Below, one piece after another: positions 361 through 13,221 of a stretch of 61,226 bases of DNA (position 1 is the first letter of the stretch; the number at the start of each line of letters is the position of its first letter). The notes beneath the pieces were generated by a model. It was not told the origin of the DNA. It saw only the letters and a list, made by a program, of their open reading frames with translations, and did not search any database. The DNA is taken from the NCBI GenBank assembly GCA_009841105.1, contig VXMM01000025.1:1-61226 (forward strand), given 5' to 3'. This DNA is from Acidimicrobiia bacterium (GTDB lineage: Bacteria; Actinomycetota; Acidimicrobiia; Spongiisociales; Spongiisociaceae). A program made the translations under genes and the position numbers.

Positions 361-780
361 CTACGGGCGTACGGCGAATGCTCGACGGCGCCCGGGGCCG
401 TAACGGTAAATCCGGAAGTCGGCGTCCAAGGCAAGGGCGTCGGTGATACCCAGGCGCTCCATCAGCGCCCAACTCGCGCGGTCCGTCAGGGAGAACGCCT
501 GATCGGGGAAGCCCGCCAACGCGCCGACCGCCGCCTCGAGGTCCTCGTCGGTAGTGCACTCGACTCGGGCGACACCGGCCGCTATCGAGGAGACGAGGCG
601 ATTGGCGGCGTGATGGTCTACTCGCGCGTTCACCAGGTTCCACAGTTCGGCGAGCACGAGGTCGGTGGTCACCAGCGTCCCCGCGTTGTCAGCGAGCAGG
701 GAACGGGCAACCTGGCTATGGGCGTCACCGTCGGCAGCGGCGGCGTACCAGATGCTGGTGTCCACGAACACCGGAACCAC
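361..780 (-). CDS. vapC: VapC-type PIN-domain ribonuclease toxin
   Basis: A 139-residue PIN-domain protein, the usual VapC length. The acidic metal-binding positions are visible: Asp7 in VDTSIW, Glu45 in LVLAELWNL, Asp100 in SLTDRASW, and Asp119/Asp121 in ALDADF. VapC toxins are Mg-dependent RNases that cut tRNA or rRNA and are held in check by the partner antitoxin. The GTG start lies 3 bases after the stop of the upstream antitoxin gene, so the two are one operon. No frameshift or lost acidic residue is seen, so the toxin looks intact. Confidence 0.9.
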   Translation of the reverse strand: MVPVFVDTSIWYAAAADGDAHSQVARSLLADNAGTLVTTDLVLAELWNLVNARVDHHAANRLVSSIAAGVARVECTTDEDLEAAVGALAGFPDQAFSLTDRASWALMERLGITDALALDADFRIYRYGPGRRRAFAVRP

Positions 781-783
781 CGG

Positions 784-1032
784 TCAGATACCTTTGGCCT
801 CGAACTGGCGGTCGATCGCCTCGCTGATCATCGCCTGCTTACCATCGGCGATCCTCGATCCGCCGCCGTCGAACAGGCCGAAGATGACGGACGGGTCGGT
901 GGCGGGAGCGTCCGTGCCCAGGTCGCGCGCCACGAGACGCCGGATGTACTCGGACAGGGAGACTCCCTGGCGAGCCGCCTTGCGCTTGGCTTCGGCGTGG
1001 TGGTGGTCTGGGAGCACAATCATGGTTCTCAT
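784..1032 (-). CDS. vapB: VapB-type ribbon-helix-helix antitoxin
   Basis: An 82-residue protein. Its N-terminus has a short beta strand (MRTMIVLPD) followed by helices with the phrase GVSLSEYIRRLVARDL, typical of ribbon-helix-helix antitoxins. The C-terminal half, ending in ISEAIDRQFEAKGI, would wrap the toxin. It precedes vapC by 3 bases. Antitoxins of this type bind their own promoter, and the inverted repeat just upstream (1059-1073) fits that. Overall 1:1 gene order antitoxin-toxin is the standard vapBC arrangement. Confidence 0.8.
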   Translation of the reverse strand: MRTMIVLPDHHHAEAKRKAARQGVSLSEYIRRLVARDLGTDAPATDPSVIFGLFDGGGSRIADGKQAMISEAIDRQFEAKGI

Positions 1033-5140: not shown

Positions 5141-7516
5141 TTACCGCTCCTGCTGTTCTCGCGTCTCTCCTTTCGGCATGCGGTAGCCGACGCGGAGTTG
5201 GGTGAAGATGTAGGTGGGGTCGTCGGCGTCGTCGCCGAGCTTGCGGCGCAGGCTGCTGATCGCGGTGCGCATGGGACGAAGGTCGGTGTCGATGTCGGGA
5301 TCAAGCCGCCAGACCCGTCTGAGCAGGTGCTCGTAGGTGAGCACCCGCCCGGCGTGGGACGCGAGCTCGGCCAGGGTCCGGTACTCGATGGCGGTAAGCG
5401 GCACCGGCCGTCCGGCCAGGCTCGCCCTCCGCTCGGCGTAGTCGATGGTCAGGTCTCCCAGGACATAGGGCGCTGACGGCTCGGGTGTCTCCCGCCGGCG
5501 CAGGGCCGCCCTGATGCGGGCCGCCAGCTCGACCGGCGAGAAGGGCTTGATCAGGTAGTCGGCGGCTCCCTCGTCCAGGGCCCGGGCCACGAGCTGCTCC
5601 TGGCCGTAGGCCGACAAGAAGATCACCGGCACATCCCTCGTCATGGCGATGTCCTTCATCAGCTCCATCCCGTCGGCTCCCGGCAGCACCAGGTCCAACA
5701 GGACCAGGTGGGGCCTGTCCTTCTCGACCAGGCGAAGCGCCTCCTCGGGGTCGGTGGTCACGATCGGTGTGTAGTCCGACTTCACGAGGGCGTCCCGGAC
5801 GTGCCGGAGGGTTCGGGGGTCGTCGTCCACCGCCAGCACCCGTACCTGCTCCGCCGTCCGCCGCCGTGGGGAGCGCGCCGGGGATGCAACGGGCCGGGCT
5901 GGAGAGACGTATCCGGCCTGTTCAACAGTGGGTATCGTGAAGGTGAACCGCGCCCCCAGTCCCGGCCCGTCGCTTTCGACCCAGATGCGGCCCCCATGGG
6001 CCTCCACGATCCCCTCGCAGACGGCTAGGCCCAGGCCGGTGCCTCGTCCCGGCTCCTCACCGTCTATCCGGGAGAACATGCGGAACAGGTGGGGCAGGCT
6101 CTCCGCCGGGATGCCCCGGCCTCGGTCGGAGACCGACACCGCCACATGGACATCCTCGACGGCCGTGCTCACTCGGATGGGAGACGACTCCGGAGAGTTG
6201 CGGGCCGCGTTGGATAACAGGTTGTCCAGCACCTGGACCATGCGTGCCCGGTCCGCCATCACCCAGGGAAGGTCCTCCGCAAGCTCTATTTCGATGCGGT
6301 GCCTCCCGCCTCCGCTGCGGAAGGCGTTCCTGGCCTCACCTATCAGTACCGCAACGTCCGTCGGCCCGGGGGAGACCGCCAGGGCGCCGGTCTCGATGCG
6401 GGCCACGTCCAGCAGGTCGCTGATCAGCAGGTGCATCCGGTCGACCTGGGAGTCGATGATCCGGTGGAACTGCTGCATCTCGGCGGGGTTCAGCGGGGCG
6501 GGCGCTCCCAGAAGGGTGGCGACGGAGCCCTTGACCGAGGTGAGTGGCGCACGCAACTCGTGGCTCACCATGGCCAGGAACTCGGCCCGTAGCCGCTCCT
6601 GCTCCTCGAGGGGCGTCATGTCCTGGAGGACCACCACCCAGGACTCCACCCGGCCCTCCTCCGAGCGGATGGGGGTGGCGTTGAGCAACGCCCGCATGTT
6701 GCGGCCGTCGGGCACCCGCAGGACGATCTCCTCGGCCCGCACCGTCTCCCCCGCGCTCAGGGCCTGGGCCAGGGGCAGCTCCTCCAGGGAGATCTCGCTG
6801 CCGTCGGCGCGGCGGACGGTTATGACCTCCAAGAGGTGCTCGAGCGGCTGGTCGGGGTATCGCAGGCCGTCCACGATCCTCAGCATCTCCCGGTTGACGG
6901 AGACCAGCGTCCCTGTTCCGGCGTCTAAGACCACGACGCCCACGGGAGTGGTGTCGATGAGCGCCTCCAGGTCGGCCCTGGCCCGCAGCTCGTCCCGGTG
7001 TCGTCGGGCGTTGGCGATCACCAGCGCCGCCTGCGCGCCGAACATGACCAGGGTCTCCTCGTCTTCTCGGCTGAACTCCCCGCCCGCCTGTCTCTCCGCG
7101 ACGAAGATGTTGCCTACGCGGTTTCCCATGTAGACGACCGGCGCCGCCAGAAACGGCAACAAGGATCCCACTTCCACGGGCGATTGGAGGTTGGGAAGGC
7201 CCTGGGACCTGATGTGGCCCAGGAGGTCCGGCAGTCTCAGGGGTCCCTCGGTCCTGCTGAGCAGTTCGAAGAACCGCATCCCGTCCGCCAGGGACCACAT
7301 CCGCTGGGCCTCCTCGGCGGTCAGCCCCGACGACAGGAAGTCCTCTATCTCGCCGGAGTCGTCCACCAGGACGAAGGCCCCGTAGCTGGCGCCGGTCAGC
7401 GACCGGGCGCTGTCCAGGACCCCTTGCAGCACCGCGTCCAAGTCCAGGCCCTCGTTGATGCGCAAGCTGGCCTCGCTCAATCTACGGAGGGCCTGCATCT
7501 CGCCGTCTCGTTCCAT
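5141..7516 (-). CDS. single-chain sensor kinase, receiver and OmpR-type DNA-binding regulator
   Basis: About 791 residues with a complete signalling path in one chain. Order: GAF (about 15-172), PAS (about 182-305), HisKA with phospho-acceptor His320 in MVSHELRAPLTS, HATPase with N-box DNLLSNAARN and glycine boxes DRGRGI and GRGTGLGL, receiver with phospho-acceptor Asp609 and conserved Lys658 in LIKPF, then an OmpR/PhoB winged helix (about 685-785, LTAIEYRTLAELASHAGRVL). No membrane segment is seen, so sensing is cytosolic. Usually these modules are split between a kinase and a regulator. A GTG at 7519 is also possible as start. It is divergent from the small-protein cassette and probably controls it and itself. 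Confidence 0.9.
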   Translation of the reverse strand: MERDGEMQALRRLSEASLRINEGLDLDAVLQGVLDSARSLTGASYGAFVLVDDSGEIEDFLSSGLTAEEAQRMWSLADGMRFFELLSRTEGPLRLPDLLGHIRSQGLPNLQSPVEVGSLLPFLAAPVVYMGNRVGNIFVAERQAGGEFSREDEETLVMFGAQAALVIANARRHRDELRARADLEALIDTTPVGVVVLDAGTGTLVSVNREMLRIVDGLRYPDQPLEHLLEVITVRRADGSEISLEELPLAQALSAGETVRAEEIVLRVPDGRNMRALLNATPIRSEEGRVESWVVVLQDMTPLEEQERLRAEFLAMVSHELRAPLTSVKGSVATLLGAPAPLNPAEMQQFHRIIDSQVDRMHLLISDLLDVARIETGALAVSPGPTDVAVLIGEARNAFRSGGGRHRIEIELAEDLPWVMADRARMVQVLDNLLSNAARNSPESSPIRVSTAVEDVHVAVSVSDRGRGIPAESLPHLFRMFSRIDGEEPGRGTGLGLAVCEGIVEAHGGRIWVESDGPGLGARFTFTIPTVEQAGYVSPARPVASPARSPRRRTAEQVRVLAVDDDPRTLRHVRDALVKSDYTPIVTTDPEEALRLVEKDRPHLVLLDLVLPGADGMELMKDIAMTRDVPVIFLSAYGQEQLVARALDEGAADYLIKPFSPVELAARIRAALRRRETPEPSAPYVLGDLTIDYAERRASLAGRPVPLTAIEYRTLAELASHAGRVLTYEHLLRRVWRLDPDIDTDLRPMRTAISSLRRKLGDDADDPTYIFTQLRVGYRMPKGETREQQER

Positions 7517-7599
7517 CACCGCACCTCTGCTGGCACTCGACTGCGGAAGGGTTCCGCTCGGACGCTACTGGGCCATTGTAGCGGCCTCAAAAGCGAATC

Positions 7600-7649
7600 T
7601 CATATTGATTTCATATTGATTCCATATATTCTCACGATGATCTCATAGT
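7600..7649 (+). promoter_or_regulatory. tandem 11-bp direct-repeat operator and promoter
   Basis: Four units in exact 11-bp phase: TCATATTGATT (7600), TCATATTGATT (7611), CCATATATTCT (7622), CACGATGATCT (7633). They are followed at once by CATAGT (7644-7649), a possible -10 box for the rightward cassette. Direct repeats with an 11-bp period that replace the -35 box are the hallmark of PhoB/OmpR-type activators. The region lies between the kinase-regulator gene and the cassette and is strikingly AT-rich. Binding by that regulator is inferred. Confidence 0.6.
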
Positions 7650-7681
7650 AGCTCGGGTAAAGTAGTTGCTTATGTACCCCT

Positions 7682-7724
7682 GGGGAACCGAGGGCGGCGG
7701 CGAGCGACCGCCCCTTGGTTCCCC
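7682..7724 (+). promoter_or_regulatory. long GC-rich stem-loop in the cassette leader
   Basis: The arms GGGGAACCGAGGGCGG (7682-7697) and CCGCCCCTTGGTTCCCC (7708-7724) pair over 13 bp with one G-T, then after one bulged base 3 more, closing a 10-base loop. The hairpin lies between the presumed transcription start and the ribosome site of the first cassette gene. No T-run follows, so it is more likely a leader structure than a terminator. Confidence 0.5.
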
Positions 7725-7741
7725 CTAACGAGGGAGACAAC

Positions 7742-7897
7742 ATGAAGTGGATACTGCTCATCCTCATGCTGGCCGGCACCGGCTGGCTCATCCTCGAAGA
7801 ACAGTATTGGTGGGCCGGAGGCGCTGCCGTGATCACGATCCTGGTCGGCTGGCGACTCATCCGCCACTCCCTCAGCAGAGCCATCCGCCCCAAGTAA
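7742..7897 (+). CDS. 51-residue single-pass membrane miniprotein
   Basis: Starts MKWILLILMLAGTG and continues through a tryptophan-rich middle (EEQYWWAGG) into a second hydrophobic stretch and a basic end, RHSLSRAIRPK. It therefore has one or two membrane spans with a positively charged C-terminus expected inside. The ATG has the ribosome site CGAGGGAG about seven bases upstream. Its TAA overlaps the next ATG by one base (TAATG). I do not recognise the family. It is the first gene of a six-gene coupled cassette. Confidence 0.6.
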   Translation: MKWILLILMLAGTGWLILEEQYWWAGGAAVITILVGWRLIRHSLSRAIRPK

Positions 7898-8061
7898 TGA
7901 ACAAAGCGGCCAAGCTAATCGCCCTCTACCTAGCAGCCATCATCCTCGCCTACCTCGGGCTAGGAGTCGGCCTACAACGATCCATCGTCCTCGCCTACAC
8001 CATATGGGCCATAACCGCGCTGCTGGTTGTCTACGGCACGTATCGGATTATCAGACGATGA
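7897..8061 (+). CDS. 54-residue membrane miniprotein
   Basis: MNKAAKLIALYLAAIILAYL opens the first of two hydrophobic helices; the second, around ISIVLAYTIWAITALLVV-like sequence, ends in YGTYRIIRR with a basic tail. The start shares one base with the stop before it and its TGA overlaps the next ATG in the sequence ATGA. Such overlaps imply translational coupling. No family is recognised. Together with its neighbours it looks like a small membrane complex rather than random open frames, because the codon phase and spacing are strictly kept through the cassette. Confidence 0.55.
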   Translation: MNKAAKLIALYLAAIILAYLGLGVGLQRSIVLAYTIWAITALLVVYGTYRIIRR

Positions 8062-8240
8062 ACCTTGTCCAAGCTGCCGAGAAGCAGGCGCTCGAACGAG
8101 TCCGGTTCAACCTCACCGACTGCATCGACAACATCGGGATGCTGATCCAACGTTACGGTCCGGATGCCAGCCTGGTAAGAGCTCGTGGTCTCTTGATTGA
8201 TGTCCGGGATCGGGTCATCAGATTCATCGACGAACAATGA
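8058..8240 (+). CDS. 60-residue soluble helical protein
   Basis: MNLVQAAEKQALERVRFNLT begins a charged, mostly helical protein with one Cys in LTDCIDNIGMLIQRYG and the end LIDVRDRVIRFIDEQ. No membrane segment or known motif is present. It overlaps its upstream neighbour by ATGA and its downstream neighbour by ATGA (ATG at 8237). A helical hairpin or coiled-coil adaptor is possible from the sequence, but no function can be given. Confidence 0.55.
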   Translation: MNLVQAAEKQALERVRFNLTDCIDNIGMLIQRYGPDASLVRARGLLIDVRDRVIRFIDEQ

Positions 8241-8392
8241 CCACCAACCCGAGGTTTGTGGGACGCCTCCTTTCTGTGGCTTTCGAGAGCATGGAGTGCC
8301 GGCCCCGGACGCTCATCCGATGGATGATCGGCGTCGCCTGCGGTCCGGTCGCGGTGGGTTGCTGGGTGCTGCTCGCAGGGCTGGGGGACTGA
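8237..8392 (+). CDS. 51-residue protein with C-terminal membrane helix
   Basis: ATG 8237 overlaps the previous stop (ATGA) and TGA 8390-8392 overlaps the next ATG. The N-terminal half is basic (MTTNPRFVGRLLSVAFESME, then CRPRTLIRW) and the C-terminal half is a single hydrophobic helix, MIGVACGPVAVGCWVLLAGL, ending in GD. The arrangement suggests a tail-anchored miniprotein. It is shorter than most gene finders report and would be easily missed. No family is recognised. Confidence 0.5.
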   Translation: MTTNPRFVGRLLSVAFESMECRPRTLIRWMIGVACGPVAVGCWVLLAGLGD

Positions 8393-8931
8393 TGGCGAAC
8401 AAGTTCGCGTTAGAGATCCCCACGCTGGAGATCGAAGGGAAGCGGCTCATCGTCCCCTCGATGCTGCGTCGCACCCTGGCGCACCTGGCCGACTTCCTCG
8501 CCGCTGCGGCGGTGGCGGGGGTCTTCTTCTGGGTCCTGCCGATCGAGTCGCCGATCCAGGACGCGGGCGGCGATGGGTTCTGGGGGACCGTGGTCCCCTT
8601 CCTCCTGTACTACCTGATCATCGCCCTGTACCGGCCGGTCGCTCACGCGGCGGCGGGCACGACGATCGGCAAGGCCATGCTCCAGATGCGCCTGGTCGGG
8701 TACGGCGCTGTTTGTAGCAAGGACCGCTTGGGCCGGAAGCCTTCGTTCTCGCTGGCGCTGGCGCGGTGGGCCGTGTTCTACATCATGCCGCTCGGTCCGC
8801 TGATCAGCCTGTTCGTGGCTCTCGGGTCCCGCGACAACCGCGGCCTCCACGACATGCTGGCGGGCACTGCGGTGGTGTCCACGCTGGCCCTGCCGTCCGA
8901 AAAGCCGGCCGAGCCAGAGGAAGAGCGATGA
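8392..8931 (+). CDS. RDD-family membrane protein
   Basis: 179 residues. The family pattern is visible: an early RR-x-LAHLADFLAAAAVAG segment (Arg and Asp of the RDD name at the start of the first span), a second span around VVPFLLYYLIIALYRPV, the motif GTTIGKAMLQMRLV, and a last span ending near FVALGSRDNRGLHDMLAGT. RDD proteins are three-span membrane proteins of mostly unknown function, some acting as cation antiporters. It is the longest gene of the cassette, and both ends overlap neighbours in ATGA or TGATG. The cluster places an RDD protein with four miniproteins. Confidence 0.85.
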   Translation: MANKFALEIPTLEIEGKRLIVPSMLRRTLAHLADFLAAAAVAGVFFWVLPIESPIQDAGGDGFWGTVVPFLLYYLIIALYRPVAHAAAGTTIGKAMLQMRLVGYGAVCSKDRLGRKPSFSLALARWAVFYIMPLGPLISLFVALGSRDNRGLHDMLAGTAVVSTLALPSEKPAEPEEER

Positions 8932-9170
8932 CCGAACCACAACGCAACGCGCAGGGCTTCGTCGTCAACAGCTTCGAGGACCTCGGCACGGTTCTCGGAA
9001 TCATGATCCACGGCGTGGACAGCCGCTTCAGTCCGGTGGATGGCATCCGCGACTGGCTCGAGCACAGGGTCGACACCATGGACAGGCGGCTTGAACCGGG
9101 TGGAGCAGAAGATGGACGCACGGCGACGATTGGGCTTCCCCGCCTCGGACGGACCGAGCCGGCGGGGTGA
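8928..9170 (+). CDS. short helical protein with a probable frameshift
   Basis: 80 residues as read, beginning MTEPQRNAQGFVVNSFEDLG. It overlaps the RDD gene by ATGA. Up to MDRRL (9078-9092) it is helical with heptad-like spacing (LEHRVDTMDRRL). After that the frame becomes proline- and glycine-rich, whereas dropping one base near 9090-9093 continues the heptads as NRVEQKMDARRRLGF. I infer a one-base insertion or sequence error that has destroyed the coiled-coil end; that alternative frame runs on to 9318. Such short coiled coils often mediate oligomerisation. Confidence 0.5.
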   Translation: MTEPQRNAQGFVVNSFEDLGTVLGIMIHGVDSRFSPVDGIRDWLEHRVDTMDRRLEPGGAEDGRTATIGLPRLGRTEPAG

Positions 9171-9541
9171 AACTGGTGGCACGATCAGCATCCCATGCCG
9201 GAAACAGGTCGGAAGCAGCCGACCACCGAAAGAAGCGCCCCGTGGTCGCCCCCTTCGGTTGGAGGTCGGCCTCCTGCCCATCAACGGCTTCTCAGCCGAA
9301 CCGAGCGGGACCCACTAGAGCCGCCTTCCGGCTTCGACAAGGACGGAAGACGGCCCTGGCGTTGATACACAGCCCAAGCGCTACCACAGTCTTCAACCGT
9401 TCACGACATGAGACTCGACAGTGTGCGGTCGAAGGCGTGTGGAGGGTGGGGCGGCGATGCTGACAGCAAGCCTGAACGCCGTCTGGTTCGGCCGCCCCGC
9501 TTCTCGCACCAGCCTGCGATGAAGTAGACCACCGACCAAAC
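9171..9541. other. intergenic stretch, only a weak inverted repeat
   Basis: Apart from the out-of-frame extension of the previous gene up to 9318, I see no gene. GGGGCGGC (9448-9455) and GCCGCCCC (9491-9498) are perfect inverted repeats separated by 35 bases and could form a weak terminator-like stem; there is no T-run. Confidence 0.3.
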
Positions 9542-9727
9542 GTGACCCTCGATCCCAAACTCGTCAGATTCGTCAGACAGCGCAGGCAGCGCCCCTCATG
9601 GGCACAAGTGGCCAAAGCTGGGAACAGAGCAGGCTACCGAACCGTCCGAGGCAAACGATGGGAAGGTGCGAATCTGCGACAACAGATGCTCGCAACATTC
9701 CCTGATGAACCTTGGTGCCGCCCTTGA
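9542..9727 (+). CDS. 61-residue small basic protein
   Basis: From a GTG at 9542 the protein is strongly basic and contains PSWAQVAKAGNRAGYRTVRG followed by KRWEGANLRQQM. That pattern (helix, glycine-rich turn, R-G-x-x-W, short helix) resembles the small helix-turn-helix segments at the ends of serine recombinases and in phage regulators, where it helps contact DNA. It could thus be a free-standing fragment of such a protein or a small regulator. Its stop overlaps the next start in TTGA, suggesting that both are real genes. Confidence 0.4.
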   Translation: MTLDPKLVRFVRQRRQRPSWAQVAKAGNRAGYRTVRGKRWEGANLRQQMLATFPDEPWCRP

Positions 9728-9939
9728 ATTCCCGTCACTCTCCAGGCATCAGAGACATCGCAGAAGCCCGACTCCGCCTACTCGAAGCAACAGAAGAACT
9801 CGAACCCCTACTCAGCGACAGCAACATGAATCCCTACAACCTGAATCTGCTCCGGGTTAACAGGCTCATTCTCGAAGCTCGCCGCCACCTACAAAACTAC
9901 CTAGACCGGACAGGGCCAATCCCACCGCAGCCCGCCTGA
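9724..9939 (+). CDS. 71-residue helical protein
   Basis: TTG 9724 overlaps the previous TGA. The protein is leucine- and charge-rich (DIAEARLRLLEATEELEPLL, then NLLRVNRLILEARRHLQNYL) and probably forms two helices. No motif is recognised. An alternative start is GTG 9712. Its pairing with the preceding basic protein suggests a small two-gene unit, perhaps also of toxin-antitoxin or mobile-element origin, but the sequence does not prove that. Confidence 0.4.
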   Translation: MNSRHSPGIRDIAEARLRLLEATEELEPLLSDSNMNPYNLNLLRVNRLILEARRHLQNYLDRTGPIPPQPA

Positions 9940-9954
9940 TCCCCGGATCACACA

Positions 9955-10045
9955 CCGGCGCGGAGTTGGCCAGGTTCTCCAGGTCGGCCTAGGCCTTTCT
10001 GAGGGACTGCATCTCCGATTCGCGGGCATCGCCCCGGTCATCTCT
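9955..10045 (-). pseudogene. possible N-terminal remnant of a second sensor kinase
   Basis: Leftward, one frame reads DDRGDARESEMQSLRKA, a stop, then ADLENLANSAP. The opening resembles the start of the single-chain regulator at 7516 (MERDGEMQALRRLSEASL), and it occupies the same place and orientation relative to a copy of the 11-bp repeat tract. There is no in-frame start and the frame is broken. This may be the fossil of a paralogue; the amino acid match is short. Confidence 0.3.
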
Positions 10046-10097
10046 ACACCTCCATCAGGACACTACGGGGTCTTTTGTGACGGTTTCGAACAGAAAC

Positions 10098-10161
10098 TCA
10101 CATTGATTTAACCGCTCGAACCCCAATTCTCACGGCTATCTTACACACGGTTACCTATAGT
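10098..10161 (+). promoter_or_regulatory. second copy of the 11-bp repeat operator, with -10 box
   Basis: In 11-bp phase: TCACATTGATT (10098), TAACCGCTCGA, ACCCCAATTCT (10120), CACGGCTATCT (10131), TACACACGGTT (10142). Units 1, 3 and 4 match the corresponding units at 7600, 7622 and 7633; unit 2 has diverged. TATAGT at 10156-10161 is a good -10 box, followed by AGCGAGG, as CATAGTAGCTCGG follows the first tract. It would drive the P450 gene rightward. Recognition by the regulator at 5141-7516 is inferred. Confidence 0.5.
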
Positions 10162-10457
10162 AGCGAGGGAAGCAGGGTCCATCGACAGGGGCGGTTCTGG
10201 CTTGACAGCTTTCGATGACACGGGCCGGAAAACGGAAGTGTTCCGATCCAGTCAGCGAAATGATCTCAACGGGGAGGCGCTTACAAGACCCGCGGCGGAG
10301 TCTGGATCCAGTGGACCCTGACCCGGAGGGTCCGGCGTGATCGCATCGCCCCTACACCGAGCCTCCCAGGGTGTGCTGCAGGGAACCGCCGCCCCTTCCG
10401 GGGACGGAGGTTCTTGGCGCTCGCAGTCAAGGGCATGTTCGAGAGTAGGACAAGGCT
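10162..10457 (+). other. long untranslated leader of the P450 gene, with a hairpin
   Basis: Almost 300 bases separate the -10 box from the P450 start and hold no gene I can support. A perfect 7-bp stem, GGACCCT (10313-10319) and AGGGTCC (10327-10333), closes a 7-base loop; no T-run follows. It could be a leader structure or the remains of a deleted gene. Confidence 0.35.
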
Positions 10458-11885
10458 TTGCTACAACGCAAGAGGCAAACGGTAACGACCAGCTCTGACT
10501 CGTTTCTGGTCGATCCTCCCAGGCCCGCCGTACGGCGAACGGAGTTGCCTCCGGGGCCATCCGCGTTGCCCCTTGTCGGCCAAGCGTTCCGCCTCAAGAA
10601 CGACTTCGTCGGCCTGCTGCGAGAGGCCGCCACCTACGGCGACGTCAGCACCGTGTCCGTGAAGCCCATCATGTGCTGCCTCGTGAATAACCCCGAGCTC
10701 ACCCGGCAGGTCCTGGTGACCAATCGCCTGAAGACCGGGCGAGGAGTGACCGCCTTTGAGACCATACGCTGGATGATGGGCGACGGCCTCACGGCATCCA
10801 CCGGGACGTTTCACCTGAAGCAGCGGCGGCTGATACGGCCCCGGTTCCATCGCAGGTACATCGAACACTACGCGGGGGCCATGACCGAGATCTCTGCCCG
10901 AAAGTCTCGGCAGTGGCGAGACGGGGCCCAGGTGGACATGGAGCAGGAGATGCGGGACTTGACGCTCGAGATAGTGGCGAAGGCCCTGTTCGATATCGAG
11001 ACGCACGACGTCGTCCGGCGCGTGGGCCGGTCGTTCGCGGAGAGTGAGGGGTACATATACGCCCGTCTGACCCAGCCGTTGTTTCTCAGGCGGCTGCTCC
11101 ACAAGCTTCCCGTGCCCTCCACCCGGCGCTTCAAGGAGGCGCGCGCCTACCTGGACGAGTTGATATACGACCTGATCAGCGAACGCCGGCGATCGGGCGC
11201 CGAAGGCGACGACCTGCTCTGCATGCTGCTGCAGGTGAGGTACGAGGACGCCGAGGGCGACGAAGGCAGCGGGATGAGCGACGAGCTGGTACGGGACGAG
11301 GCGGTCTCCCTGTACATCGCCGGGCACGACACCACGGCGACCACCCTGACGTACGCGTTCTTTCTCCTGTCCCAGAACCCCGAGGTGGAGAAGCGGTTCC
11401 ATGCGGAGCTGGACGACGTGCTCGGGGACCGCGACGCCACCCTCGAAGACCTGCCCAACCTGCATCTCACCGACCAGATAGTCACGGAGACGCTGAGGCT
11501 CTATCCGCCGTTCTGGCTCCTTGGAAGGATGGTGTTCGAGCCCATCGAATTGGGGGGTCATCGCATCCCGGCCGGCGTCTCAGTGGTGACCTCGCCGCTA
11601 ATCACGCACCGCGATCCGCGCTGGTTCGACGACCCGCTGGAGTTTCGCCCTGAGCGCTGGACGGACGAGTTCCGCAGCCAACTGCCGCAGTTCGCATACT
11701 TCCCCTTCGGGGGAGGCGAGCATCAGTGCATCGGCGAGGGCTTCGCGTGGATGGAGGCGAAGATTGCGCTGGCCACCTTGCACCGGCGCTGGCGCGCTAC
11801 GACGAGCAGCAAGGCGGAGATCATGCCTCGCACAACCCTCAAGGTGAAAGGCGGCCTGCCGATGAGACTCGAACGTCGCCGCTAG
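10458..11885 (+). CDS. cytochrome P450 monooxygenase
   Basis: 475 residues, full length for a soluble bacterial P450. Landmarks: PPGPSALPLVG proline hinge (31-41), I-helix oxygen-binding motif AGHDTT (288-293), the ExxR pair in ETLRLYP (344-350), and the heme loop FGGGEHQCIG (417-426) with axial Cys424. The C-helix has HLKQRRLIRPRF. The overall look is of the CYP102/CYP4/CYP135-138-like group that hydroxylates fatty acids or terpenoids; the substrate is not known. Redox partners are not adjacent. TTG 10458 is the only reasonable start, preceded by AGGACAAGG. It probably forms a unit with the MpaB-type oxygenase downstream. Confidence 0.93.
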   Translation: MLQRKRQTVTTSSDSFLVDPPRPAVRRTELPPGPSALPLVGQAFRLKNDFVGLLREAATYGDVSTVSVKPIMCCLVNNPELTRQVLVTNRLKTGRGVTAFETIRWMMGDGLTASTGTFHLKQRRLIRPRFHRRYIEHYAGAMTEISARKSRQWRDGAQVDMEQEMRDLTLEIVAKALFDIETHDVVRRVGRSFAESEGYIYARLTQPLFLRRLLHKLPVPSTRRFKEARAYLDELIYDLISERRRSGAEGDDLLCMLLQVRYEDAEGDEGSGMSDELVRDEAVSLYIAGHDTTATTLTYAFFLLSQNPEVEKRFHAELDDVLGDRDATLEDLPNLHLTDQIVTETLRLYPPFWLLGRMVFEPIELGGHRIPAGVSVVTSPLITHRDPRWFDDPLEFRPERWTDEFRSQLPQFAYFPFGGGEHQCIGEGFAWMEAKIALATLHRRWRATTSSKAEIMPRTTLKVKGGLPMRLERRR

Positions 11886-11914
11886 AGCACCGCGACCGAC
11901 GGAGGGCTCGGCCT

Positions 11915-11974
11915 GACCGCACGGCGCCAGTCCCGACGGGCGGCCTGCCGATGACCCTGGAGCGCCGAGATTGA
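11915..11974 (+). pseudogene. duplicated P450 C-terminal tail
   Basis: Right after the P450 stop, one frame reads TGGLPMTLERRD and a stop at 11972-11974. It is nearly the same as the P450's own end KGGLPMRLERRR, and the DNA matches over GGCGGCCTGCCGATGA. This looks like the tail of a second P450 gene lost by deletion, or a tandem duplication of the end of the first. Confidence 0.5.
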
Positions 11975-13221
11975 GCGGACGCCATGTGCCAACCCACCAC
12001 GGAGAGGCGAGATCACCGCCCGGAGCGACTGAAGAGAAACTCCCGGCGATCATCCCCACCGACTACAGGGCGGGGTACGAGAAGGCGTGTGAACTGGCGC
12101 CGGAAACGGCCGCCAACTACGTCGCACACACGCTGATCGGAGATCCTCTGGCCGACGCCATGATGGAGGACCTGTCCGGCGTCTCGAGGCAGGAACAGGC
12201 CCTGCTGTTTCAGGGGGCGTTGCTCGAGCAGGACTGGGACAGCCTGACCGACGCTCCTTCTTCGGCGAAGGAATTCTTCGAGGACACGGAGAAAGTGCCG
12301 GACTGGGTCGATTTTGACTCATTTCTCCCGGGAATCCGCATGTTCCATCGGAACTCTCATCTCATCCTGGGCGCGTTTGTCGGGGGCACGCTGGTGGAAG
12401 GGTTCGCCACCAACATCAGCAAGGCTTTCTTCATCAGCGGGAGGGTGCGCGACCAGGGAGTACGGAGGCTGAGGCAGAACAACCGGCACATGATCGAGAT
12501 CTTCATGCCCGACGGCTTGACCAGGGACGGAGACGGTTGGAAGTTATCGGTACGGATCCGGCTTGTCCACGCGCAGCTGAGACGGTTGCTCGGGAACTCC
12601 GACGAATGGGACCACGAGGCGTGGGGTCTGCCCATAAGCTCGGCACATCTCGGTTACGCCATTACGTCGTTCTCGGCCAGGCTCTTGGACCACATGAAGC
12701 ACCTGGGGGCGAAGTACTCCGACGAGGAGCGCGACAGCTTCATGTCCATTTGGCGGTATACCGGACATGTCATGGGCATTCCTACCTCCATACTCTTCCG
12801 GGACGAGGAGGACGCCCATCACCTGCACCGAATCGGCTCTGTGTGCGAGCCTCCGCCCTCCCCGGAGTCAATCGTCATGGCGCATGCGCTGGTCAACTCT
12901 GCCCCGCTGGTGATCGGCGTTTCCGACCCGCCGGAACGCCGCAAGCTGGCGGGCTACGTGTTCAAAGTCTCCCGGGCCCTGATCGGCAACACGCTGGCCG
13001 ACCAGTTGAAGTATCCTCCCGGCCCGAGCTATGGGACCCTGTTCATCTTCCGGATGCAGGGGAGGTACAAGCGCCTTCTGGCCAGCCTGGGCCGAAAGAG
13101 TAAGAATGACCCGAACCTATTCAGGTTTGTGTCACTCTTGGAGGCGTCCGTTCTGGAAGAGACGGGGATCAGCTACAGGCTGCCCGATCACATGTACTCG
13201 GAGGAGTCTTCCCAGTGGTGA
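11971..13221 (+). CDS. MpaB/DUF2236-type heme oxygenase
   Basis: 416 residues in the oxygenase MpaB family (DUF2236), which includes latex-clearing protein Lcp and fungal MpaB. These use heme b to cleave or oxidise isoprenoid carbon chains. Visible family features are DWVDFDSF, the helix FHRNSHLILGAFVGGTLVEG, WRYTGHVMGIP with a candidate heme His, and a second His-rich stretch EEDAHHLHRIG. TTG 11971 overlaps the end of the duplicated P450 tail; GTG 11986 is an alternative. It follows the P450 closely, so the pair may act in one oxidation pathway, possibly of a terpenoid. The substrate is inferred only from the family. Confidence 0.75.
   Translation: MSGRHVPTHHGEARSPPGATEEKLPAIIPTDYRAGYEKACELAPETAANYVAHTLIGDPLADAMMEDLSGVSRQEQALLFQGALLEQDWDSLTDAPSSAKEFFEDTEKVPDWVDFDSFLPGIRMFHRNSHLILGAFVGGTLVEGFATNISKAFFISGRVRDQGVRRLRQNNRHMIEIFMPDGLTRDGDGWKLSVRIRLVHAQLRRLLGNSDEWDHEAWGLPISSAHLGYAITSFSARLLDHMKHLGAKYSDEERDSFMSIWRYTGHVMGIPTSILFRDEEDAHHLHRIGSVCEPPPSPESIVMAHALVNSAPLVIGVSDPPERRKLAGYVFKVSRALIGNTLADQLKYPPGPSYGTLFIFRMQGRYKRLLASLGRKSKNDPNLFRFVSLLEASVLEETGISYRLPDHMYSEESSQW

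Follow-up and report, generated by a model that had tools for sequence, protein, structure and literature searches.

A run of six start-stop-overlapping small ORFs around an RDD-family gene, facing a fused kinase-regulator, as a possible accessory membrane module in Acidimicrobiia

In the 61,226-nt stretch analysed here (the window, which is a whole contig of a 3.05-Mb draft genome that is 97.5% complete), we have found six small ORFs in which each stop codon overlaps the start codon of the next one. The fifth encodes an RDD-family membrane protein, and the whole run lies divergently from a gene for a one-chain sensor kinase and response regulator. Taking together this layout, control by the divergent regulator, the coupled chain and a complex formed by the products, we propose that the locus is an accessory RDD-centred membrane module, a reading to which we give about even odds (a probability of roughly 0.5). 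Any specific physiological role that might be assigned to it is, at best, rather unlikely to be the right one.

Six overlapping frames and their coding character

All six ORFs lie on the plus strand and begin with ATG. ORF1 (7742–7897; 51 aa) is hydrophobic, ORF2 (7897–8061; 54 aa) has two hydrophobic spans, ORF3 (8058–8240; 60 aa) is non-hydrophobic and ORF4 (8237–8392; 51 aa) has a single hydrophobic span; they are followed by ORF5, the RDD gene (8392–8931; 179 aa), and by ORF6 (8928–9170; 80 aa). The five junctions in the row read, in order, TAATG, ATGA, ATGA, TGATG, and ATGA. When the sequence was read by eye, Shine–Dalgarno-like sequences were visible 5' of ORF1 (GAGGGAG) and of ORF6 (AGAGGAAG) and none was seen for ORF2, ORF3, or ORF4. 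The first-pass annotation had placed ORFs of 51, 54, 60, 51, 179, and 80 codons at 7742–9170, and both the sizes and the coordinates were exact; it also described the coupling as kept six times, and every ORF-to-ORF boundary does overlap, although the junctions number five. When ORFs with an ATG start and a minimum of 45 codons are counted, this chain of six is the longest in the contig (the maximum on the minus strand being three), and none of 300 contigs simulated with a first-order Markov model gave a chain of six (the longest chain was five in 2 of them, four in 27, three in 204, and two in 67), in agreement with the initial view that random frames would be unlikely to keep such coupling. 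Such overlaps couple the translation of adjacent ORFs, and genes for the subunits of complexes are enriched in them (PMC10666635).

Codon usage separates the ORFs. With 28 larger genes of the contig as the training set and 133 wrong-frame ORFs as the null, ORF1, ORF2, and the RDD gene scored above all 133 null ORFs. The scores of ORF3 and ORF4 were borderline (fractions of 0.045 and 0.060 of the null, respectively, at or above them). The value for the whole of ORF6 was 0.060 and for its first 55 codons 0.008, so about 55 N-terminal codons are coding-like. Because the V-M-L-V-M heptad-like spacing found at the end of ORF6 (...HRVDTMDRR) carries on in a different frame (LNRVEQKMDAR), its C-terminal part, as judged by eye, has probably been put out of frame by a one-base shift. 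What backs ORF3, ORF4, and ORF6 is thus their coupling together with these borderline codon scores, and as genes they are unproven.

The Kyte–Doolittle analysis (window 19) gave hydrophobic spans in ORF1, ORF2, ORF4, and ORF5, barely so in ORF1 (1.64 against a cut of 1.6), which accounts for the four ORFs initially described as having such spans. The RDD protein had been named as the sole recognizable member and Pfam agrees, as RDD (PF06271) is the only family found and the five other small proteins have no match above the cut-off. ORF1–ORF4 and ORF6 also lacked any match that would name them in Pfam, PHROGs, NCBIfam, and PADLOC (above the cut-off, or at E < 0.05 where none is set).

Relatives, remnants, and marks of mobility

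The full six-gene set was found in this genome only, and no relative carries all six ORFs in order. The recurrence of gene order that the first-pass annotation proposed to look for was therefore seen in parts: the ORF1-ORF2 pair recurs in decayed form in one genome (G003) and the RDD-regulator pair in another (G013), while the six-gene order recurs in none.

For ORF2, a convincing match was obtained in one other genome of the 137 of the order, G003, which belongs to another species of the same genus (E 2e-12), and the match in a third genome was weak (0.03); a two-row ORF2 profile added only two weak matches among the 395 genomes of the class, our own included. G003 retains the C-terminal portion of ORF1 and the greater part of ORF2, in the same order and with the start codons lost, approximately 100 bp from a tRNA-Ser(gga) gene and with an IS110-type transposase frame nearby; this copy adjoins neither the regulator nor the RDD gene. 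Comparison of the 66 codons shared by the two pairs gives 38 differences that are synonymous and 35 that are not (pS 0.61, pN 0.26; dN/dS ∼0.25), a bias towards synonymous change from which we conclude that ORF1 and ORF2 were under selection at the protein level while most of this divergence accumulated. Weak ORF1 matches occurred in 18 of the 137 other genomes (E ≤ 0.05) and all but the one in G003 were rejected as membrane-composition noise, 15 of those 17 falling inside open frames of more than 300 aa; the G003 match was kept because ORF2 adjoins there too. In G003, a 91-aa frame with no visible likeness to ORF3 follows the decayed pair (L084, 780–1055, minus strand), which suggests a further sign of turnover among tiny genes.

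No relative of ORF3 was found. The four weak matches of ORF4 (G044, G068, G086, and G108) were set aside, the two neighbourhoods examined (those of G086 and G108) showing no RDD gene and no array of tiny ORFs. The single weak match of ORF6 (L061, E 0.008) was also rejected, as it is a longer coiled-coil frame and no RDD gene was recognized by eye in its 3.1-kb locus. ORF3, ORF4, and ORF6 thus lack convincing relatives, so no constraint can be demonstrated for them. Neutral drift, which had been named at the outset as a result that would speak against a real gene set, is not the pattern in ORF1, ORF2, and the RDD gene, in which pS exceeds pN; for the other three ORFs there are no usable relatives.

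Matches to the RDD protein at 1e-6 or better were limited to four of the 395 class genomes: our own, two distant ones and G013 (1e-76), which represents a different genus of the same family. Its 4.4-kb contig (L097) carries, in order, a tyrosine integrase (confirmed by PF00589, PF13356, and PF22022), a regulator fragment, the divergent RDD gene, and two tiny membrane ORFs (73 and 33 aa) that overlap by ATGA. The two RDD proteins are identical at 120 of 172 residues (pS 0.48, pN 0.21; dN/dS ∼0.32). The regulator fragment covers residues 180–464, is cut at both ends and is identical in 211 of 290 columns, that is, 73% over those columns versus 65% between the window regulator and its best same-genus orthologue. 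Furthermore, in a tree built from 19 copies of the regulator, the window regulator pairs with this fragment (100/99), which occupies 37% of the columns, and is closer to it than to three same-genus orthologues. Because the regulator and the RDD gene are linked in two genera and integration machinery adjoins them in one, these data argue for a transfer of both as a unit; the linked pair appears to be mobile, and the tiny ORFs beside it differ between the window and G013.

A remnant of the 5' end and promoter region of a second regulator is located at 9949–10175 (minus strand, from local alignment), upstream of a cytochrome P450 gene. The segment 9953–10175 aligns with 7430–7665 with a score of 40, against a maximum of 29.5 in shuffles (0/1000). 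Its minus-strand reading, RESEMQSLRKA followed by an in-frame stop and ADLENLANSAPV, joins the N-terminus of the regulator to the start of its PAS domain, with the GAF domain absent. Since this stump matches the regulator 5' end, a second regulator was probably once present at the locus, so that one would have faced the operon of tiny genes and the other the P450 gene. The first-pass annotation had remarked neither on this second copy nor on the marks of mobility. The P450 gene itself (10458–11885) lies downstream of the stump promoter, after a long and apparently untranslated leader (10175–10457). In 15 relatives neither a P450 match at E ≤ 1e-60 nor a DNA match to 7500–12000 was obtained. 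Between the operon and the stump there are also two overlapping small ORFs of 61 and 71 aa (9542–9939), whose third-position GC of 0.55–0.60 is unlike that of host genes and which are unsupported by the codon model.

These remains bear on a different reading, in which ORF1, ORF2, and the RDD gene alone are or were functional, and ORF3, ORF4, and ORF6 are frames that arose by chance or are decaying within foreign DNA, a cargo that is being lost. The codon scores of ORF3 and ORF4 fall within the upper 5–6% of the wrong-frame null and not past it, these three ORFs are the ones lacking convincing relatives, ORF6 switches frame inside its heptad-like stretch, the copies in G003 and G013 are broken, and the second regulator copy is a stump. 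However, five exact and consecutive start-stop overlaps would be hard to retain by chance, and the RDD gene, ORF1, ORF2, and the regulator are intact in this genome, so we regard this decay as an appreciable possibility with the odds against it. The accessory module that we favour has, for its part, the absence of any intact relative against it, as the start codons are lost in G003 and the regulator is cut at both ends in G013.

It is also conceivable that the operon serves a mobile element, in its establishment, in the exclusion of related elements or in a change of the cell surface, with the regulator as the control of the element. The integrase beside the G013 copy, the tRNA-Ser and the IS110-type transposase beside the G003 copy, a patchy distribution, and the lack of P450 and DNA matches in the 15 relatives would all fit this. 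On the other hand, no integrase or conjugation gene was present among the ORFs scanned around the operon in the window, and the small proteins tested and the RDD protein have no relatives in viral contigs or in plasmid or phage records (six proteins in the case of plasmids, RDD, P0006, and ORF1–ORF4; three in that of phages, P0007, ORF2, and RDD), which leaves this explanation improbable. A phage origin was rejected, all PHROGs matches having E > 0.05 in addition to the lack of viral relatives. A defence system was rejected as well, with no PADLOC match for eight small proteins of the window or for the 73-aa ORF of G013; the PADLOC matches of the regulator were limited to its receiver region. 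Elsewhere in the contig, a PIN-domain protein (361–1032, minus strand) is preceded by an 82-aa ORF, an arrangement that we take to be the usual VapBC toxin-antitoxin layout, with the antitoxin not confirmed by Pfam.

The divergent regulator and the operon leader

The regulator (5141–7519, minus strand; 792 aa) has the architecture GAF-PAS-HisKA-HATPase-REC-Trans_reg_C, with all domains above the Pfam cut-offs, including PF00072 and PF00486, so that a kinase and an OmpR-type regulator form one chain; GAF and PAS are the only input domains found by Pfam. In having a kinase and a response regulator in a single polypeptide it resembles the hybrid two-component systems of Bacteroides, for which a membrane sensor is described (PMC11253607); the inputs recognized here are GAF and PAS, with an OmpR-type output. 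No carbohydrate-use genes like those of the Bacteroides hybrid systems were recognized adjoining our regulator.

Between the regulator and the operon, in the operon promoter, there is an operator-like array with an 11-bp period of about one helical turn (7600–7649, plus strand), TCATATT-N4-TCATATT-N4-CCATATA-N3-TCACGAT-N4-TCATAGT, whose lag-11 self-match is the maximum of the contig and was reached in 0 of 2000 shuffles. Repeats of this sort are bound by OmpR/PhoB regulators; the PhoP protein of M. tuberculosis, of this type, recognizes 7-bp motifs with 4-bp spacers, and with higher affinity when three or four are consecutive (PMC4832192). The likeness to such regulators comprises the REC and Trans_reg_C domains and 7-bp direct repeats that start with TCA and have 4-bp spacers; unlike PhoP, REC and the DNA-binding domain are here fused behind a whole GAF/PAS histidine kinase, the motif is not TCACAGC and the site is a candidate one. 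The pattern YTCAY-N6-YTCAY was present in 9 of 18 upstream regions of the regulator family versus 0.14 expected from shuffles, a count that is non-independent as the 14 other copies are close paralogues; the eight cases besides ours sit at positions 134–148. Because those 14 copies are related and the three nearest same-genus orthologues (L031–L033) lack the repeat, we consider this family-wide count as only supportive of the putative operator; these three orthologues also lack the operon. Upstream of the paralogues (L034–L046), the nearest predicted gene lies 559–837 bp away from the regulator in 12 of the 13 loci with a neighbour (1390 bp in L039), and these gaps hold conserved blocks such as TTTCACCATACCTTCAYACYCAT. 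They could hide a small RNA or a tiny gene; 11 of these loci were searched and had no Rfam match.

Downstream of the array lies a strong leader hairpin (7682–7724, plus strand; a 13-bp stem, 92% complementary). The predicted fold of 7665–7760 has a minimum free energy of −43.6 kcal/mol (z −4.0; 0/200 shuffles fold as well), and this minimum-energy structure also pairs the Shine–Dalgarno stretch and the start codon of ORF1. A riboswitch or other known leader RNA was rejected, the window having no Rfam match at gathering thresholds, and none was obtained in the upstream regions of the regulators at 13 loci; in L084, tRNA and SRP RNA were the only matches.

From these features we propose the following control of the operon, which would be an accessory, horizontally acquired one. 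The one-chain kinase-regulator would sense through its GAF and PAS domains and, once phosphorylated, would bind the 7-bp half-sites with 4-bp spacers at 7600–7649, thus controlling both itself and the operon. Ribosomes would enter mainly at ORF1, where the leader hairpin could mask the Shine–Dalgarno sequence and the start codon, and would move down ORF1–ORF4 by termination-reinitiation; since ORF2–ORF4 show no Shine–Dalgarno sequence, a gate at ORF1 would gate the whole run. The RDD gene may possess a weak entry site of its own. In this way the tiny proteins would be made in a fixed proportion with the RDD protein.

The RDD protein and the putative complex

The RDD protein matches PF06271 with an E of 9.9e-14 (52.2 bits versus a curated cut-off of 24.1) and has three Kyte–Doolittle spans (33–51, 62–80, and 127–145). 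The R, D, D signature of the family (PMC5996927) is present as R27, which starts the first transmembrane span, D34 within it, and H153-D154 near the C-terminus, all of them kept in the G013 relative. An AlphaFold model was too poor for use (mean pLDDT 46.6, with shallow alignment depth). RDD matches in genome contigs include four from Bacilli/Erysipelotrichaceae, with 25–53% over parts of the protein, and eight other RDD loci (L022–L026 and L089–L091) do not have the six-ORF layout in the flanking stretches examined.

The RDD protein of Halobacillus andaensis is reported to be a Na+(Li+,K+)/H+ antiporter in which R124, R129, D154, and D158 are needed for transport, D158 being indispensable (PMC5996927). 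Our protein is like it in its PF06271 match, its three hydrophobic spans and its conserved R27, D34, and H153-D154, and an equivalent of D154 is present. By analogy, the locus could be an ordinary RDD-type cation/proton antiporter locus for salt or pH stress. However, the D158 position, as counted from the shared HD motif, appears to be a glycine here, the gene stands among coupled tiny ORFs next to a fused regulator, and these tiny genes would play no part in an antiporter model; we therefore judge this explanation very unlikely.

In the accessory module that we favour, the RDD protein would most likely be joined by the tiny membrane proteins as accessory subunits, giving a small complex of the inner membrane, and the complex would act in ion or solute homeostasis, or in that of the envelope, under the condition sensed by the regulator. 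The membrane complex and the stress role that the first-pass annotation had suggested are guesses. A broader and quite speculative extension, which we think unlikely, is that of a mobile modular system with a conserved regulator-RDD core to which each host adds fast-changing coupled tiny membrane proteins, the whole working as an undescribed sensing or envelope-protection complex. In the titles and opening lines of abstracts that make up the literature surveyed, we have found no report of an RDD protein with coupled tiny genes under a fused kinase-regulator.

RDD is a large Pfam family in which one member has a tested function in the literature surveyed. The locus described in this work offers a defined regulator, a candidate operator and candidate subunits around an RDD protein that would be made in lockstep with tiny proteins. 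Moreover, it suggests that tiny coupled ORFs adjoining conserved membrane proteins can turn over quickly between relatives.
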